This document shows positions 161 through 6,348 of a stretch of DNA of 55,033 nt, piece by piece. The notes below the pieces were generated by a model, which was not told where the DNA came from, made no database searches, and was given only the letters and a program-made list of their open reading frames with translations. The stretch's first letter is position 1. The number at the start of each line of letters is the position of its first letter. Both the position numbers and the translations under genes were made by a program. Source of the DNA: Acidobacteriota bacterium (GTDB taxonomy: Bacteria; Acidobacteriota; Terriglobia; Acidiferrales; UBA7541); the NCBI GenBank assembly GCA_003154775.1, contig PMES01000084.1, forward strand, positions 1-55,033, read 5' to 3'.

Positions 161-629
161 ACTTTACATCTGCCGCCCCGCCAGAGCACCGGAGATGAGG
201 TGTCCAACAATGGTCATAATAACGATCGTCCAACCATTACGACCAACGGTAAGACGTCGCTGCTCCCACGCTTTCCAACTAACCAGCCAGATTTCTTCGA
301 TTATGGATATGCGGCTGGACAAGGGTTTCAAGATTCACGAACGTTACAGCTTGCATTTGGTGGCTGATTTCTTCAACGTGACCAACCGCGCCAACCTCTG
401 GTCAAATCCGGATGTTAGCGCCACGATTAACTACGCGCCGTACTGCACGCCGCGCACGCCGGGCGGCGGTCAGGGCCCGATAGGGTATAGTTGCACGCCG
501 CTAACCGCGTGGCCGCAACGGGGCGTCAAAGGCCCTTCGTCAGTCTATTACGGCTACGGGGCAATCGATCAGATCGCACCAGGTAGTTCGCCATTCGCGT
601 TCCAAGCGGGAGTGAGGTTCACATTCTGA
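161..629 (+). pseudogene. Oar-like TonB receptor C-terminal remnant, frameshifted
   Basis: Two reading frames join into one receptor C-terminus. The frame open from 161 reads NNGHNNDRPTITTNG and then LLPRFPTNQPDFFD. The frame used from about 303 to 629 reads MDMRLDKGFKIHERYS, then FFNVTNRANLW, and ends FAFQAGVRFTF. In intact Oar-like receptors these blocks are contiguous, so one extra base near 300-305 appears to have shifted the frame. Everything upstream (plug and most of the barrel) is missing: a stop lies at 158-160 and another receptor ends at 134. The stop overlaps the next start (TGATG, 627-631). This suggests the ancestral receptor gene headed the nucleoside-salvage operon and was translationally coupled to it. 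An alternative is a pure gene fragment with no present role. Confidence 0.7.
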
Positions 630-1750
630 TGAGTTTAAACTACCAGACACGTAGGCAGTTTGTTGGAAGGATCGGAAGTTCGGTGATGCTGGCGGTCGTC
701 GGAGGCAAAAACCTTCGACACGAAGTGGCTTCAGTTCCGACCGCCAGCTCTGGTTTGCGCTGGCCCAAGCCAATCGGCAGTCCCGTCCTGGACAGCCTAC
801 GTCCCGTAATCGAGCACTCCAAAGACGTCGACACGAATGTAGACAAGATTGTTGAGGTCGCTGGCTGGATGGCCTATGAAGAGCTACCGATGCCTGATAT
901 GAGCGTTCCCTACGGGCTCGCCAAGGACCCGTCTAAGGCCATGGACTTCATCATGGTGGCCAACTCGATCAACTCTGCGTTCACCGATTTCAAGACCCAC
1001 GTGAAGTTCCAAGTGGAATTCGAGGGGGAGATTCGATCCGACTCCGACGCGATGGTCGCATGCCTGAAGCGCGCAATGGATAACGGCGTTCCGATTTTGG
1101 ACGGCAAGTTCCTCGCCAGCATTACACGCCCGCAGCTCGAAAAGATTTTCGCAGGCAACATGGAAATACCGATGCTCGACGAGAAGATGCAGGCTTTCCA
1201 CGAAGTGGGCAAAGTGCTCGCTGAACGTTATGATGGGCGCTTCTATAATTTCATCAAGTCGTGCCCGCCGAAGCTCTACGCCAACGGCGAAGGGCTAGTC
1301 GACCGCTTGGTGAAGGAATTCCCGCGCTTTAACGACGTGAGCGAGTTCGAGGGCCACGAGATCAAGTTTTACAAGCTCGCCCAGCTCGGCTTCTGGGGCA
1401 TGTACTCGGGGCTTCTCTCAACGGGCGCATTTCCTCTGGACGACATTTCGAAAATGACGGCGTTCGCTGATTACATCGTACCGGTGGCTCTGCGCCTTAT
1501 GGGCATCACCAGCTACTCGCCCGTTCTCGAAAAGGCTGTCGACTCTTATCAGCTGATCCCTCGCGATTCTACGCAAGAAATTGAAATCCGCGCTCACAGC
1601 CTCTATGCCACAGCGTTGCTGGCGGAAGAAATCAACAAGATCCGGACTGCCGACCAGCAGATCATCATCCCGCAGCTTGATGCGCGGCTCTGGACGCACT
1701 ATCACACGACACTCTGGCCTCACCACCTGACGCGCACGATCATGTATTAG
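629..1750 (+). CDS. Tat-signal Q_salvage (DUF2419/QNG1-like) family protein
   Basis: 373 residues, starting at an ATG that overlaps the receptor stop by one base. The N-terminus, RRQFVGRIG followed by a hydrophobic stretch (about residues 8-24), is a twin-arginine export signal. The mature part follows the queuosine-salvage family in order: VLDSLRPVIEHSKDV (about 52-66), a KRAMDNGVPILDGKFLASIT block, EIPMLDEKMQAFHEVGKVLAERYDGRFYNFIKS (split here by description only), a FYKLAQ block, FADYIVPVAL (about 279-288), an EIEIRAHSL block and a C-terminal TRTIMY. Eukaryotic and bacterial QNG1 proteins release queuine from queuosine 5'-monophosphate in the cytosol. Here the segments equivalent to NFSFW and GYWSL are not conserved and an export signal is present. 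The substrate may therefore be a nucleoside outside the cytoplasm. Family membership is recalled from motif similarity; activity is inferred. Confidence 0.72.
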   Translation: MSLNYQTRRQFVGRIGSSVMLAVVGGKNLRHEVASVPTASSGLRWPKPIGSPVLDSLRPVIEHSKDVDTNVDKIVEVAGWMAYEELPMPDMSVPYGLAKDPSKAMDFIMVANSINSAFTDFKTHVKFQVEFEGEIRSDSDAMVACLKRAMDNGVPILDGKFLASITRPQLEKIFAGNMEIPMLDEKMQAFHEVGKVLAERYDGRFYNFIKSCPPKLYANGEGLVDRLVKEFPRFNDVSEFEGHEIKFYKLAQLGFWGMYSGLLSTGAFPLDDISKMTAFADYIVPVALRLMGITSYSPVLEKAVDSYQLIPRDSTQEIEIRAHSLYATALLAEEINKIRTADQQIIIPQLDARLWTHYHTTLWPHHLTRTIMY

Positions 1751-1786
1751 AAACTCCGGATAGACGACATGGAAAGAGGTAGACCG

Positions 1787-2884
1787 ATGATAACGAAACG
1801 TAGTTGGCTTCTAGTCACTCTGCTGGTTGTTCTGGCGGGAATCGCTTCTCCACTGGCAGCTCAGGAAAAACGCAAAGTGATCATTGACCAGGACGCGAGC
1901 GGGCCCGCGTCTACGGACCTCCAATCTGTTCTCGTCTTAATCCAGTCTCCGCAGACCGAAGTGCTCGGCATCACTATTGTCAGCGGCGATCAGTGGCGCG
2001 ACGAAGAGGTAGCTCACACGCTCCGCATGCTCGAGCTGATCGGCCGAACAGACATCCCCGTCGTGCCCGGCGCGGTATTTCCGTTGCTGAACAGCAAGGA
2101 ATTCCAGGAGCGGTGGGAAACGCTGTATGGCAAAACAATATACCAGGGCGTTTGGAAGGACTGGCGCACGCCTGACATGCCGGTTCGCGGCCCGTGGGAA
2201 ATTCCTCCGCTGCCGGAAGGCTCTCCCACAACCAAACCCGCCGATGAAGACGCGGCGCACTTTATTATCCGCATGGTTCATAAGTATCCGCATCAAGTAA
2301 CGATTTATGCCGCAGGACCGCACACGAACTTGGCCCTGGCAATCAGGATCGATCCGCAAGTGCCGGAACTGGCGCAGGAGCTCGTCTTCATGGGCGGGTC
2401 GATATCGGAAGTTCTCAAATCTGAAGGACCGCAGACGCAGCGCCGCGAATTCAATCTCTGGTGGGACCCGGAAGCTGTGCACATCGTCCTAACCGCGCCC
2501 TGGCACAAGATTACAGACACGACCGTGGACACCTCGGTCAAAACGAATTTGACGAAGGCTATGATTGCTGAGATTACAAAGTCGCCGAATCCAGCCGCGC
2601 AGTACATCGCGAAGTATGCAACCGAGGGGTACATGTGGGACGAGTTGGCGGCTGCGGAGTGGCTCGACCCGAGCATCATCACGAGCGAGTCGCAGTGGTA
2701 CATGGACATCGACTGTGCACACGAAGGCGGCTACGGCAACATTCTTATCTGGGATCCCGGCCAACAGCCCGGACTCGGCGAGCAGATCGTTCATGTGCCG
2801 ATGGAGATAAATGCGGAGAAGTTCTACAAGATGTTCATCGATCTCATGATGCGCCCAACGCCCGTTGCGAGAGCGACCCAGTGA
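1787..2884 (+). CDS. Exported nucleoside hydrolase-like protein (IU-NH family)
   Basis: Start chosen at 1787, not the ATG at 1769: AGAGGT lies 7 bases upstream of 1787 and the protein then opens with a clean Sec signal peptide (KRSWLLVTLLVVLAGIASPLAAQ). 365 residues. Family hallmarks are an N-terminal IIDQD strand, LVFMGGSI, EFNLWWDPEA (substrate-binding Asn and Asp region) and YMWDELAAAEWLDP near the C-terminus, which carries the late active-site Asp. The family cleaves the N-glycosidic bond of ribonucleosides to base plus ribose. Oddly, the Ca-binding DxDxGxDD loop is DQDASGPASTD here, with a longer loop and only one Asp at its end. QueK, a queuosine hydrolase, belongs to this superfamily, which fits the Q_salvage-like neighbour. 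The substrate is an inference. Confidence 0.82.
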   Translation: MITKRSWLLVTLLVVLAGIASPLAAQEKRKVIIDQDASGPASTDLQSVLVLIQSPQTEVLGITIVSGDQWRDEEVAHTLRMLELIGRTDIPVVPGAVFPLLNSKEFQERWETLYGKTIYQGVWKDWRTPDMPVRGPWEIPPLPEGSPTTKPADEDAAHFIIRMVHKYPHQVTIYAAGPHTNLALAIRIDPQVPELAQELVFMGGSISEVLKSEGPQTQRREFNLWWDPEAVHIVLTAPWHKITDTTVDTSVKTNLTKAMIAEITKSPNPAAQYIAKYATEGYMWDELAAAEWLDPSIITSESQWYMDIDCAHEGGYGNILIWDPGQQPGLGEQIVHVPMEINAEKFYKMFIDLMMRPTPVARATQ

Positions 2885-2960
2885 GATTCAGACCGGGGGT
2901 GCATATCGGGGAAACCGATCGGGTGTCCGCATGGAGGGTTGTTAGGCCGGGGATGTTCTG

Positions 2961-3101
2961 ATGGGCCGTCGGCGTGAGGGGGAAGCAGGGCGCCTGACAC
3001 GAAGAGAGCTCGGACAGATTGCAGGAATGTCACGAAGTCCGGCCGAGACGCCAGTCGCTTCCCAGCCGAAACACAAAGACCGCGTGGGAACCACGCGCTG
3101 A
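2961..3101 (+). CDS. Possible 46-residue small ORF
   Basis: An ATG at 2961 opens 46 codons ending TGA at 3099-3101, just before the ribokinase. The peptide is Arg-rich at its start (MGRRREGEAGRLTRRELGQIAGM) and has no membrane segment. There is no convincing ribosome-binding site and no family I recognise. It may be only a spacer or a decayed signal-like fragment between operon genes. Confidence 0.15.
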   Translation: MGRRREGEAGRLTRRELGQIAGMSRSPAETPVASQPKHKDRVGTTR

Positions 3102-3116
3102 TAAAAAAGGGAAAAG

Positions 3117-4055
3117 ATGGCCAAGCAGCCTTACATCGCTGTTGTAGGCAGTGCCAATGTGGATCTGACAACGTTTATTGACGAATTTCCCCGTCCGGGA
3201 GAAACGATTTTCGGGAAGAAATTCGACCTCGGCTTCGGCGGCAAAGGAGCAAATCAGGCCGTGGCCGCTCGCCTGTGCGGTGCTGCGGTCTGCATGGTCG
3301 CAAAGGTTGGGAGCGACTTGTTCGGTCCCGTCACGATCGAGAACTTTAATTCCTTTGGGATAGACGCCAGCCACGTCCGGATCGTCGAAGGAGTTTCTAG
3401 CGGCGTCGCACCGATTTTCGTGGACGCGAGCGGCCAGAATCGCATCATCGTGGTAAGTGGCGCAAACGATGCGCTTCTCCCGCAGGACTTGGATTTAGCT
3501 GCTCCCATTCTTCGGAAAGCCGATTACATCGTGTTGCAACTTGAGATCCCTTTGAACACGGTTTACCACGCCATTCACTTCGCGAAATCGAACGGGATCC
3601 GCTGCATCTTGAATCCGGCCCCCGGCCGAGTGCTGGATCTGACCGAACTTGCCGCCGTGGACTATTTCATCCCGAACGAAAGCGAAGCGGAGCTCATCAC
3701 AGGGATGCCTGTCCACTCAATTGAGGACGCAAGAAGTTGTGCCGACTCGCTTCTCGGCCGAGGAATACGCCGGGTTGTCATTACATTAGGTGAAAGAGGA
3801 GCCCTGCTGAGCGGGCCGGAAGGAATGGAGTTGATCCCTGGTTTCAGGGTCAAGACGATCGATAGCACCGGCGCGGGCGATGCCTTCATTGGCAGCTTCG
3901 CTGTCTTTCTTGCCGAAGGCCTCCCGGAGGTGGAGGCCCTTACCCGGGCAAACCTCTACGCTGCCCTCTCCACGACGCGAGTGGGAACACAAAAATCCTT
4001 CTTGAGCAGGTCGGAGTTCGAGCAGGAATGGAAGGTTCGCGGGGGGCGATCGTAA
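3117..4055 (+). CDS. rbsK: Ribokinase (PfkB family)
   Basis: 312 residues. It phosphorylates D-ribose with ATP to ribose 5-phosphate, taking the sugar released by nucleoside cleavage into the pentose phosphate pathway. Motifs visible: VVGSANVDL at the start, the sugar-binding GGKGANQAVAA (about residues 42-52), NPAPG, and the signature STGAGDAFIGSFA (about 250-262), whose GAGD holds the catalytic Asp and anion hole. Length is normal for RbsK. A purine-rich stretch (AAAAAAGGGAAAAG) precedes the ATG. It sits between the nucleoside hydrolase and the permease on the same strand, which supports ribose from nucleosides as the substrate. Related kinases (adenosine kinase type) are less likely given the GGKGANQA motif. 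Confidence 0.9.
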   Translation: MAKQPYIAVVGSANVDLTTFIDEFPRPGETIFGKKFDLGFGGKGANQAVAARLCGAAVCMVAKVGSDLFGPVTIENFNSFGIDASHVRIVEGVSSGVAPIFVDASGQNRIIVVSGANDALLPQDLDLAAPILRKADYIVLQLEIPLNTVYHAIHFAKSNGIRCILNPAPGRVLDLTELAAVDYFIPNESEAELITGMPVHSIEDARSCADSLLGRGIRRVVITLGERGALLSGPEGMELIPGFRVKTIDSTGAGDAFIGSFAVFLAEGLPEVEALTRANLYAALSTTRVGTQKSFLSRSEFEQEWKVRGGRS

Positions 4056-4124
4056 CTACACTTGGTTTTGCGTTTCGAGGTGTACTGCGGTGATTCCGAT
4101 ATTCTCTGAGTCGTGGGAGCAAAC

Positions 4125-5126
4125 ATGTTTATCCTACAGAGCTACTTCTGGGCCGTGGTCTTTTGCGCCATCACCATGCTTTGCTGGGGTTCGTGGGCTA
4201 ACACACAGAAGCTGGCACCGAAAGACTGGCGATTTGAGCTATTCTACTGGGACTATGCCGTCGGCGTCCTCCTGATTTCCCTATTGTTTGGCCTGACCTT
4301 GGGCAACACAGGGTCCCAAGGACGGAGTTTCTTTGCGGATGTTGCGCAGGCGTCTAGCAAAAGCCTGATCTTTGCATTGATCGGTGGCACGATATTCAAC
4401 GCCGCAAATATCCTCTTGGTGGCAGCCATTGACATTGCGGGTATGGCGGTAGCATTTCCCGTCGGGATTGGCTTGGCCCTGGTTCTCGGAGTTATGGTTA
4501 ACTATCTCGCAAATCCAATGGGGAGTCCCATCCTTCTCTTTGGGGGTGTTGCTCTTGTCGTACTGGCTATCATTCTAGATGCGATTGCGTACCGTAGGCT
4601 ATCCAAGCGTACCGAAGGCCTCAGCATTAAGGGTCTGGCTCTGTCTGTTGCCTGTGGAATTCTGATGGGCTTTTTCTACAGGTTCGTCGCAGCTTCCATG
4701 TCGCTAAACTTCGCTAACTTGGAAACGGGCAAGCTGGGTCCCTATGCTGCGGTTTCAGTTTTCTCACTCGGCGTGCTCCTCAGCAACTTCGTATTCAATA
4801 CGATCATCATGAGAAAGCCTTTTCGGGGAGAACCAGTCTCGGCATCTGCGTACTTCCGGGGCGACCTTCGGACGCACTTGATCGGGGTGCTTGGTGGGAT
4901 AGTCTGGGGAGTTGGAATGGCGCTCAACATCATCGCATCAGGAAAGGCTGGCTTTGCCATATCCTACGGCTTGGGCCAGGGCGCCACTATGGTCGCGGCC
5001 TTGTGGGGCGTTTTCGTTTGGAAGGAGTTCAAAGAAGCGTCATTAGGGACCGACAAGATAATTGCTTTTATGTTCTTGTGTTTCCTTGCCGGGTTGGTGT
5101 TGATTATTATCGCTCGGAATGTCTAA
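4125..5126 (+). CDS. Ureide permease/GRP-like sugar or nucleobase transporter
   Basis: 333 residues, about ten hydrophobic segments, of the drug/metabolite transporter superfamily. Start at ATG 4125, preceded by GGGAG at 4115-4119; a GTG at 4113 overlaps that site and is less likely. The arrangement (CWGSWANTQKL after TM1, FYWDYAVG, GGTIFNAANILL, FPVGIGLALVLG, then a C-half with FYRF, GGIVWGVGMALN, SYGLGQGATMVAALWGVFVWKEF) resembles plant ureide permeases, which carry allantoin, uracil and other oxo-heterocycles. It also resembles bacterial glucose/ribose GRP carriers. As the last gene of the nucleoside-salvage cluster it could import the base or the ribose released in the periplasm. Which one cannot be decided here. 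Confidence 0.75.
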   Translation: MFILQSYFWAVVFCAITMLCWGSWANTQKLAPKDWRFELFYWDYAVGVLLISLLFGLTLGNTGSQGRSFFADVAQASSKSLIFALIGGTIFNAANILLVAAIDIAGMAVAFPVGIGLALVLGVMVNYLANPMGSPILLFGGVALVVLAIILDAIAYRRLSKRTEGLSIKGLALSVACGILMGFFYRFVAASMSLNFANLETGKLGPYAAVSVFSLGVLLSNFVFNTIIMRKPFRGEPVSASAYFRGDLRTHLIGVLGGIVWGVGMALNIIASGKAGFAISYGLGQGATMVAALWGVFVWKEFKEASLGTDKIIAFMFLCFLAGLVLIIIARNV

Positions 5127-5128
5127 CG

Positions 5129-6348
5129 GCGTGCATCGGAATCCAAAGCGACGATCTGTGCCTCTCGAAAATCTCGAAATGTCTGAGCGGATAGGGGTTA
5201 TATTTCTTTCATAATTCTCGCCGATGCTTATTTCTCTCACGACACTCCTCGCAACTCTGTCTTCGATCTTCCGTTTGCGTGCTGCCCTTGAGCTCGAGAA
5301 CCTGGCTCTGCGCCACCAAATCGGCGTGCTTCAGAGGTCCGCAAGAAAACGCCCGAAATTGACCTCAGGGGACCGCCTGTTGTGGATCTGTCTGTCCCAC
5401 CTCTGGCGTGACTGGCGCTCGGCGCTGGCCATCGGCAAGCCAGAAACGGTCGTAGCCTGGCATCGTGCCGGCTTGCGTTTGTTCTGGACCTGGAAGGTGC
5501 GGCGCGGCCAACCCGGACGACCCGTCATTTTCCGCGAGGTCCGAGATCTGATCCGCAAGATGTGCCGGGACAATCCCGGTTGGGGTGCACCCCGCATCCA
5601 CGGGGAACTGCTCAAACTCGGCATCGACATCGGGGGAGAGCAGCGTCAGCAAATATATGGTGCGCTGCCACAAGCCGCCGTCTCAGACCTGGCGCACATT
5701 TCTGGAGAATCACGCCAAGCAGCTCGTCTCCATCGACTTCTTCACGGTGCCCACTATCCGTTTCCAGGTCCTTTACGTGTTTCTGGTGTTGGCCCATGAC
5801 CGGCGTCGCATTCTGCACTTCAATGTGACCGCCCACCCGACCGCGGAGTGGACCGGACAGCAACTGCGGGAGGCCTTTCCCTTTGACCAACTCCCGCGCT
5901 ACCTGCTGCGCGACCGCGATGCTATCTTTGGGAATGACTTCCGAGAACAGGTGCGAGACACGGGCATCTGCGAAGTTCTGTCTGCACCGCGCTCGCCTTG
6001 GCAGAGAGCCTATGTAGAGCGAGTGATAGGATCCATTCGGCGCGAGTGCCTCGATCATGTGATCGTGTTCCATGAAAACTCGTTACGACGAACCCTCAAT
6101 TCGTATTTCGATTACTATCACCGATCAAGAACACATCTTTCGTTGGGGAAGGACTCGCCGGAGCCACGAACGATTCAGCCGCCGGAAATGGGGTCCGTCG
6201 TGGCGGTGCCGCAGGCCGGCGGACTGCATCACCGCTACGAACGACGGGCTGCCTGAAAAAGCCCGAATCCACCACGCTAAGCGCTTTCTCTCCTTGGGCC
6301 ATTGAAATTTGTGTTCGAACTGTGCTCCCTTGCACACGCGTGCATCGG
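5129..6348. mobile_element. Insertion sequence (rve/DDE type), boundaries uncertain
   Basis: The segment holds a DDE transposase gene (5224-6256). An identical 11-base direct repeat, GCGTGCATCGG, lies at 5129-5139 and 6338-6348, on either side of it, and may be a target duplication. I find no convincing terminal inverted repeats inside these points, so the true ends are not fixed. The element lies just after the permease gene. Confidence 0.5.
5224..6256 (+). pseudogene. IS transposase with integrase core, single frameshift
   Basis: The first frame (from ATG 5224) carries the N-terminal part: RAALELENLALRHQIGVLQR, SGDRLLWICLSHLW and GWGAPRIHGELLKLGIDIG. The second frame continues with SSVSKYMVR and the catalytic core. 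The DDE triad is visible as VSIDFFTV (first Asp), LLRDRDAIFG (second Asp) and AYVERVIGSIRREC (Glu). The frame is lost in a run of five G at 5632-5636: reading four G would give IGESSVSKYM. Related transposases (IS3/IS481-like group) are normally one uninterrupted protein here. This copy is therefore probably inactive, unless the G run slips at translation or is an assembly error. Downstream Tyr-His-Arg motifs to the end (HHRYERRAA) are intact. Confidence 0.88.

Follow-up and report, generated by a model that had tools for sequence, protein, structure and literature searches.

An exported QNG1-family protein in a recurrent acidobacterial gene cluster, a candidate periplasmic nucleosidase for the salvage of queuosine precursors

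The DNA stretch analysed here (the window, 55,033 nucleotides) is the start of contig C150, from base 1 onward through its first 55 kb, in the 4.63-Mb, 98% complete genome of an acidobacterial soil bacterium. Close to its beginning, the gene 629–1750 encodes a protein of the QNG1 family (Q_salvage, PF10343) which carries a twin-arginine translocation (Tat) signal. In animals and plants, an enzyme of this family recovers queuine, a building block of tRNA. We propose, with a probability of roughly 55%, that this protein is a periplasmic nucleosidase which acts on 7-deazapurines at the nucleoside level and serves the salvage of queuosine (Q) precursors. The proposal is carried by features computed directly: the family, the fold, the catalytic residues, the export signal, the recurrence of the gene cluster, the loss of basic residues and the co-distribution of the protein's clade with the absence of QueC. 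The cluster is real and recurrent and goes beyond a single oddity.

An earlier note, made from the letters of the window, had assigned 629–1750 to the Q_salvage family. The assignment is borne out by the profile search: the match scored 202.2 bits, where the cut-off is 25, and covered positions 5–285 of the 285 in PF10343. All five phmmer matches in the Protein Data Bank (PDB) are Qng1 enzymes (7uk3 and 7u07 with E 2e-46, human 7ugk with E 2e-31). The AlphaFold model of the product has a pLDDT of 86 and a pTM of 0.83, residues 1–40 lying below pLDDT 50. The structural comparison with solved Qng1 enzymes, which the note had envisaged, leads to the same family: every one of the 11 structures that Foldseek matched at E ≤ 0.001 is a Qng1, either bacterial or human, and for Sphaerobacter Qng1 (StQng1) the TM is 0.87–0.89 by target length (7u91: E 1e-22, TMt 0.87). 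A false PF10343 match is excluded by the profile score and the phmmer and Foldseek results. In the alignment, K249, D281, D351 and W355 of the window protein correspond to K199, D231, D298 and W302 of StQng1. K199 and D231 were exchanged in the mutants 7u5a and 7ulc, whose PDB titles give K199C and D231N, and D298 and W302 are named as Qng1 active-site residues in the accessible part of PMC11592518. Profile, fold and catalytic residues place the protein in the QNG1 family; the canonical set of basic residues is absent from it.

The absence of these residues is a property of a whole clade. The tree contained 65 rows, of which 59 form the clade of the window protein with a support of 100/100. 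Outside it lie StQng1, the Woesebacteria locus L107 and a third type, represented by four acidobacterial rows. (Loci are designated by L numbers and genomes by G numbers.) The clade is made up of 29 acidobacterial-type rows, including the window protein, a second copy from the same genome and the Verrucomicrobia-labelled L069, and of 30 Gram-positive-type rows, by which we mean those labelled Actinomycetota, Chloroflexota or bearing no label. L105 and one L104 fragment, both short, and loci repeating a genome already included were omitted. The root of the tree is unsure because long branches meet at its base. Named relatives of the window protein are Candidatus Sulfotelmatobacter and Acidobacteriaceae. 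With gaps set aside, the equivalents of K199, D231, D298 and W302 are each found in 100% of the 59 rows, and those of H316, E267, E269 and R271 are retained as well. Four other positions are switched: R200 to Leu (97%), K233 to Ile, R317 to Leu and Y315 to His (100% each), represented in the window protein by L250, I283, L367 and H365. StQng1 and L107 carry Arg, Lys, Arg and Tyr at 200, 233, 317 and 315, and human QNG1, with FYKRAQ and ADYRLP, has Arg at 200 and 233 (its alignment stops short of 317). In the third acidobacterial type (L050, L052–L054), ADNLVP replaces ADY[KR]xP. For these four no signal was seen, and their genomes (G062, G043, G068 and G030) have QueC and QueA. Position 233 alone is not diagnostic, because the third type has Leu there with R200 and R317 kept.

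We infer that the charges lost with R200, K233 and R317 held the 5′-phosphate of the substrate, so that the clade would have lost 5′-phosphate recognition. The loss of three basic residues points to nucleosides rather than nucleotides as the substrate. The same residues bear on the reading of 629–1750 as a plain exported QNG1, a nucleotide enzyme acting on queuosine-5′-monophosphate from tRNA degraded outside the cytoplasm. The retained fold and catalytic residues are in its favour, as is Q-5′-monophosphate being the primary substrate of canonical Qng1 (PMC11592518, accessible part), but the clade-wide Leu/Ile/Leu at three positions that are basic in StQng1 and L107 and the nucleoside importers beside several non-exported members make it improbable. 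The description of the protein in the earlier note as an exported QNG1 stands with regard to export and has to be modified with regard to the enzyme, which belongs to a clade without these three residues.

Export signals were scored with a custom script and inspection, in place of SignalP or TatP. The N-terminus of the window protein, MSLNYQTRRQFVGRIGSSVMLAVVGG, contains RR followed by a hydrophobic stretch, and the motif TRRQFVGRIGSSVMLAVVGG (RR-x-F) near the start identifies a twin-arginine signal at approximately residues 1–35, as had been claimed. A twin-arginine signal is present in 18 of the 29 acidobacterial-type rows: the main scoring accepted 13, and five more (L042, L046, L048, L063 and L068) passed a simpler rule with inspection. 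One row, L040, is borderline and was placed in neither group, and the signal is missing or broken in 10, among them L041, where frame changes have apparently disrupted it and which was counted as not intact. Flags raised by the simpler rule were dropped for L076 and L098, where the upstream frame lies outside the gene, and for L069, where the upstream frame overlaps a neighbouring permease gene and no signal is present from the ATG start. The same scoring found a credible export signal in none of the 30 Gram-positive-type rows. To our knowledge, the known hydrolases of queuine and Q salvage are all cytoplasmic, and no report of an exported QNG1 was found among the open-access papers searched.

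The link to queuosine metabolism suggested in the earlier note is supported by the presence of tgt, by the association of the clade with absence of QueC and by transporter partners of the Vut_1 and ureide-permease types. The check proposed in the note, for tgt in the absence of queuosine synthesis genes, came out negative for the window genome: tgt, queA and queC are all present. Obligate salvage is thereby ruled out for this organism, and salvage there would be supplementary. QueC, an enzyme of preQ0 synthesis, was scored at E ≤ 1e-20 in the 95 genomes of the order and was not found in 15 of them, namely in 7 of the 13 QNG1 carriers and in 8 of the 82 other genomes (Fisher p 0.0006). The eight non-carriers without QueC are all at most 86% complete. 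In the 52 genomes that reach 90% completeness with no more than 5% contamination, it is missing from 2 of 5 carriers and 0 of 47 others (p 0.0075). Permutation gave a p value of 0.0013 when done within genus, the same value when done within completeness bins, and 0.0044 when both were combined. QueA, used as a control, showed no association with carriers in the order (p 0.18) and is retained in six of the seven QueC-less carriers, which argues that the path stops at a precursor. Beyond the order, the 96% complete genome G214 of another family has an exported member, QueA and only weak QueC matches. The pathway searches in named genomes covered 28 of the 51 clade loci of a scan of these genomes, together with L107. 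In 11 further carriers labelled Acidobacteria or Verrucomicrobia, QueC was found in nine (weakly in one) and QueA in 10; in 17 Gram-positive-type carriers, QueC was found in none, QueA in eight and TGT in 15.

The base used downstream can be approached through TGT, of which 35 sequences were aligned. All 20 acidobacterial enzymes have GG[LV][AS]VGE and DEC, while GGLAGDE with DQP occurs in four, those of the QueA-less Chloroflexi G414 and G416–418. We take GGLAGDE and GGL[AS]VGE to mark queuine-type and preQ1-type TGT, respectively; with the motifs so read, a queuine-type TGT is ruled out for the 20 Acidobacteria, and structure-function work would suggest a different base for the four Chloroflexi. 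Two QueA-less cases speak against a simple rule: G412 and G358, each an incomplete assembly or a fragment, carry the usual GGL[AS]VGE. The Limnocylindrus-type Chloroflexi (L101–L103; TGT loci L132–L134), in which QueC and QueA were not found, have a non-exported QNG1 followed by a Vut_1-type gene and a TGT with GGLAGDE and DQP; they are candidates for queuine or queuosine salvage. Another TGT variant was seen in three small actinobacterial genomes in which QueA was not found (L139, L140 and L141): its base-specificity loop reads DGFG[LF]GG, and GVGFK is inserted after TDSGGFQVLSL.

The genes at the start of the window, all on the + strand, are the following:
3–133, +: C-terminal end of a TonB-dependent receptor, the remainder being off the contig (tblastn with the receptors of the relatives L036, L042, L062 and L072, 53–79% identity)
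191–628, +: second TonB receptor remnant (tblastn: frame 2 at 191–304, frame 3 at 306–626, break near 305)
629–1750, +: QNG1-family protein with Tat signal, 373 amino acids, of the putative nucleoside-type clade (PF10343, phmmer, fold, tree, signal scoring)
1769–2884, +: putative exported nucleoside hydrolase, PF01156 (IU_nuc_hydro 189 bits against a cut-off of 34.2; Sec-type signal)
3117–4055, +: ribokinase, cytoplasmic (TIGR02152, 332 bits, above cut-off)
4113–5126, +: ureide-permease-like DMT carrier (UPS), candidate importer of base or ribose (PF07168, PF06800)

The profile matches and the Sec-type signal support the exported nucleoside hydrolase, ribokinase and ureide-permease-like carrier previously read downstream of 629–1750. 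The carrier scores 74 bits with Ureide_permease PF07168 (cut-off 27) and 29.6 with Sugar_transport PF06800 (cut-off 26.3), and stays below the cut-off of TIGR00776. In 1769–2884, the first metal loop is the variant DQDASGPASTDLQS instead of DxDxGxDD, the usual metal motif of IU nucleoside hydrolases (PF01156), and VSGD stands in the alignment where VxGN is usual. According to tblastn, the receptor at 3–133, truncated by the contig start, differs from that at 191–628, which represents approximately the last 140 of the 1100 residues of the intact receptors of relatives. The TGATG overlap at 626–630, by which a TonB remnant was said to be fused to the QNG1 gene, is present; the remnant itself is more degraded than described, its frame being broken near 305. 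An intact TonB receptor gene lies directly upstream of QNG1 in L042–L046, L051 and L067. Directly 3′ of the permease gene, 5224–6256 contains two overlapping transposase-like frames, IS3-like by eye, the first of which has only weak helix-turn-helix matches under the cut-off.

The second QNG1 of the window genome lies on another contig, is 63% identical, also has a twin-arginine signal and is situated directly 3′ of an exported nucleoside hydrolase whose metal motif is the standard one. This second copy and the 27 further acidobacterial-type rows rule out an isolated oddity of one contig. The scan of named genomes yielded 52 loci. The gene order that recurs at the acidobacterial loci, mostly in part, runs from a nucleoside hydrolase through a TonB receptor, QNG1 and a variant nucleoside hydrolase to a ribokinase and a UPS. 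The survey for the combination of a Tat-exported Q_salvage protein with a nucleoside hydrolase, proposed earlier, showed the combination in 14 of the 18 exported members, which include the window protein and the second copy: a nucleoside hydrolase gene is present in the available stretch for these 14 and a UPS gene for 10 of the 18 (fragmented in L042 and L063), some contigs ending early. At nine loci (L037, L039, L040, L051, L063, L079, L081, L082 and L097) the neighbour map missed QNG1 as a called gene owing to longer overlapping frames; the acidobacterial loci so missed were counted from a separate locus mapping. Among the nucleoside hydrolases beside exported QNG1, one subfamily recurs in which the first metal loop is expanded (DQDxxGPxxTDxQS-like) and VSGD takes the place of VxGN, examples being window 1769–2884, L003 4800–5906 and those of many acidobacterial loci. 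Near the second QNG1, L003 132–3374 encodes, by eye, a LacI-type regulator and, side by side, two DeoC-like aldolases, to one of which a gene in L047 with a PF01791 match is related. They suggest that deoxyribose is used in this region too.

PF10343 is rare, being found in 10 of 297 genomes of the phylum (two of these under the cut-off) and in 13 of the 95 genomes of the order. Compounds of the toyocamycin and sangivamycin type are 7-deazapurine nucleoside antibiotics. Such a patchy distribution and the location of the enzyme outside the cytoplasm would fit detoxification, in which 7-deazapurine nucleoside antibiotics made by soil actinomycetes are broken down by the exported enzyme and base import is incidental. 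This explanation leaves the QueC association and the transporter partners unaccounted for, and no resistance gene was seen among the scanned neighbour representatives; we regard it as very improbable.

The importers found beside QNG1 tend to vary with the location of the enzyme. The signal-less L066, L071 and L072 adjoin a CNT nucleoside transporter and a pyrimidine-nucleoside phosphorylase. Among the 26 Gram-positive-type loci with mapped neighbours, permeases of the BPD_transp_2 cluster occur within seven genes in eight, an ABC ATPase in eight and a Bmp binding protein in four, one representative having been scanned per neighbour cluster for its Pfam identity. The nearest NCBIfam model for these proteins is a putative B6 transporter, far under its cut-offs, and their designation as putative nucleoside importers follows from the Pfam Bmp/PnrA match and the neighbouring hydrolases. 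In L102, a Vut_1 gene (52.5 bits, cut-off 27.2; 48.6 with TIGR00697, under its cut-off of 50.95) begins 9 bases past the QNG1 stop, and by similarity to it a Vut_1 homologue directly follows QNG1 in L101 and L103.

From these data the following route can be proposed. A TonB receptor, whose gene is a remnant in the window copy, would bring material across the outer membrane, and the Tat system would export the QNG1-fold N-glycosidase encoded by 629–1750 to the periplasm. There it would split free 7-deazapurine nucleosides of the queuosine family into base and ribose, the substrate in Acidobacteria being most likely the preQ1/preQ0 nucleosides and possibly queuosine, and the neighbouring exported nucleoside hydrolase or hydrolases would act on other nucleosides. 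The base would be taken in by the ureide permease and feed tgt/queA, and the ribose would enter by some other route and then be phosphorylated by the ribokinase. According to the accessible part of PMC11130926, a UPS encoded next to an Acidobacteriota qng1 restored preQ0/preQ1 uptake in E. coli, whereas Q was not carried and queuine (q) only at very high concentration, a result called unexpected there. Because this UPS carried preQ0/preQ1 and not Q, the acidobacterial enzyme would more likely free preQ0/preQ1 than queuine, unless the latter undergoes further conversion. Base import after hydrolysis, as the earlier note had it, is kept in this proposal, with queuine losing ground as the imported base. 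The more specific proposal, that a phosphate-blind QNG1 frees preQ1/preQ0 (or queuine) outside the cytoplasm for a ureide permease, and that enzyme location and importer type changed together in evolution, is put forward tentatively and at odds below even.

Several observations weigh against salvage of Q precursors by an exported enzyme. The window genome, with tgt, queA and queC, need not salvage, and QueC is present in 6 of the 13 carriers of the order. The seven QueC-less carriers comprise four exported ones (G323, G366, G371 and G375, 77–87% complete), one borderline (G302) and two without a signal (G299 and G330), and the near-complete ones among them are G302 and G330. Taken alone, exported carriers lack QueC in 4 of 9 cases, compared with 8 of 82 non-carriers (p 0.016 by Fisher's test; 0.005, 0.04 and 0.012 with stratification), and among the non-exported or borderline carriers of the order it was not found in 3 of 4. 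The association belongs to the clade and not to export as such. The QueC figure for the 17 Gram-positive-type carriers stands without a background rate for either Acidimicrobiia or Chloroflexi. An intact signal is missing from 10 of the 29 acidobacterial-type members, and the Leu at 233 in the third type, though R200 and R317 are retained, makes one of the switched positions less particular to the clade. The pairing of location and importer is not strict, because L037, L041 and L069 combine a UPS with no intact signal; genes of the CNT cluster are found near the exported L047. Finally, genes of ordinary nucleoside catabolism (DeoC, cytidine deaminase, pyrimidine phosphorylase) occur in several clusters.

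The last point leads to the main rival explanation, general extracellular nucleoside catabolism, in which the substrates of an exported QNG1 relative have shifted to ordinary or miscellaneous nucleosides, ribose and deoxyribose are harvested as carbon and the UPS-like carrier moves sugar. It would explain the neighbouring exported nucleoside hydrolases, ribokinase, DeoC-like aldolase, cytidine deaminase and pyrimidine-nucleoside phosphorylase, as well as the match of the UPS to Sugar_transport; it is at ease with queC, queA and tgt in the window genome and with the QueC signal of exported carriers resting on four genomes less than 90% complete. We nevertheless consider it unlikely, since the absence of QueC is associated with the clade, Vut_1 adjoins a clade member in Limnocylindrus-type Chloroflexi with a TGT devoid of the usual motif, the active-site residues D298 and W302 are retained, and transport of preQ0/preQ1 by a qng1-adjacent UPS has been published (PMC11130926, accessible part).

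If the salvage of Q precursors by the exported enzyme is correct, it would account for the puzzle posed by PMC11130926, a preQ0/preQ1 carrier beside qng1, provided that the exported enzyme frees preQ0/preQ1 or queuine is processed further. It would also mean a further step in the exchange of micronutrients in soil, and the pocket changes of the clade, having arisen naturally, would help to dissect the substrate choice of QNG1.

Among known systems, QueK is a nucleoside-hydrolase relative, like the exported hydrolases beside QNG1, of which 1769–2884 has an altered first metal loop. QueK is a characterised queuosine hydrolase of another family (PMC11130926, accessible part), and the mention of queuosine in the accessible part of PMC6679007 concerns QueC. 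The layout of the window cluster, taken as new in the earlier note, is already published for the pairing of UPS with qng1 in Acidobacteriota (accessible part of PMC11130926); the export is what we found no report of. The cluster of that UPS, A0A2V9U0M9, is probably of the same type; the study, in its accessible part, tests the transporter, and its main text contains neither 'signal peptide' nor 'periplasm'. The queuosine precursor transporter QPTR/YhhQ (Vut_1, TIGR00697) is comparable through the Vut_1 gene next to the clade member L102, whereas the window cluster has no Vut_1 and a UPS occupies that place. The closest likeness is to StQng1 (7u91, 7u07) and human Qng1 (7ugk), with which the window protein shares the fold (TM 0.82–0.89 by target length) at 27–32% identity and, in the case of StQng1, K199, D231, D298, W302 and H316. 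It differs from both in its export signal and its nucleoside hydrolase and UPS neighbours, and from StQng1 in R200, K233, R317 and Y315, which are altered throughout its clade.

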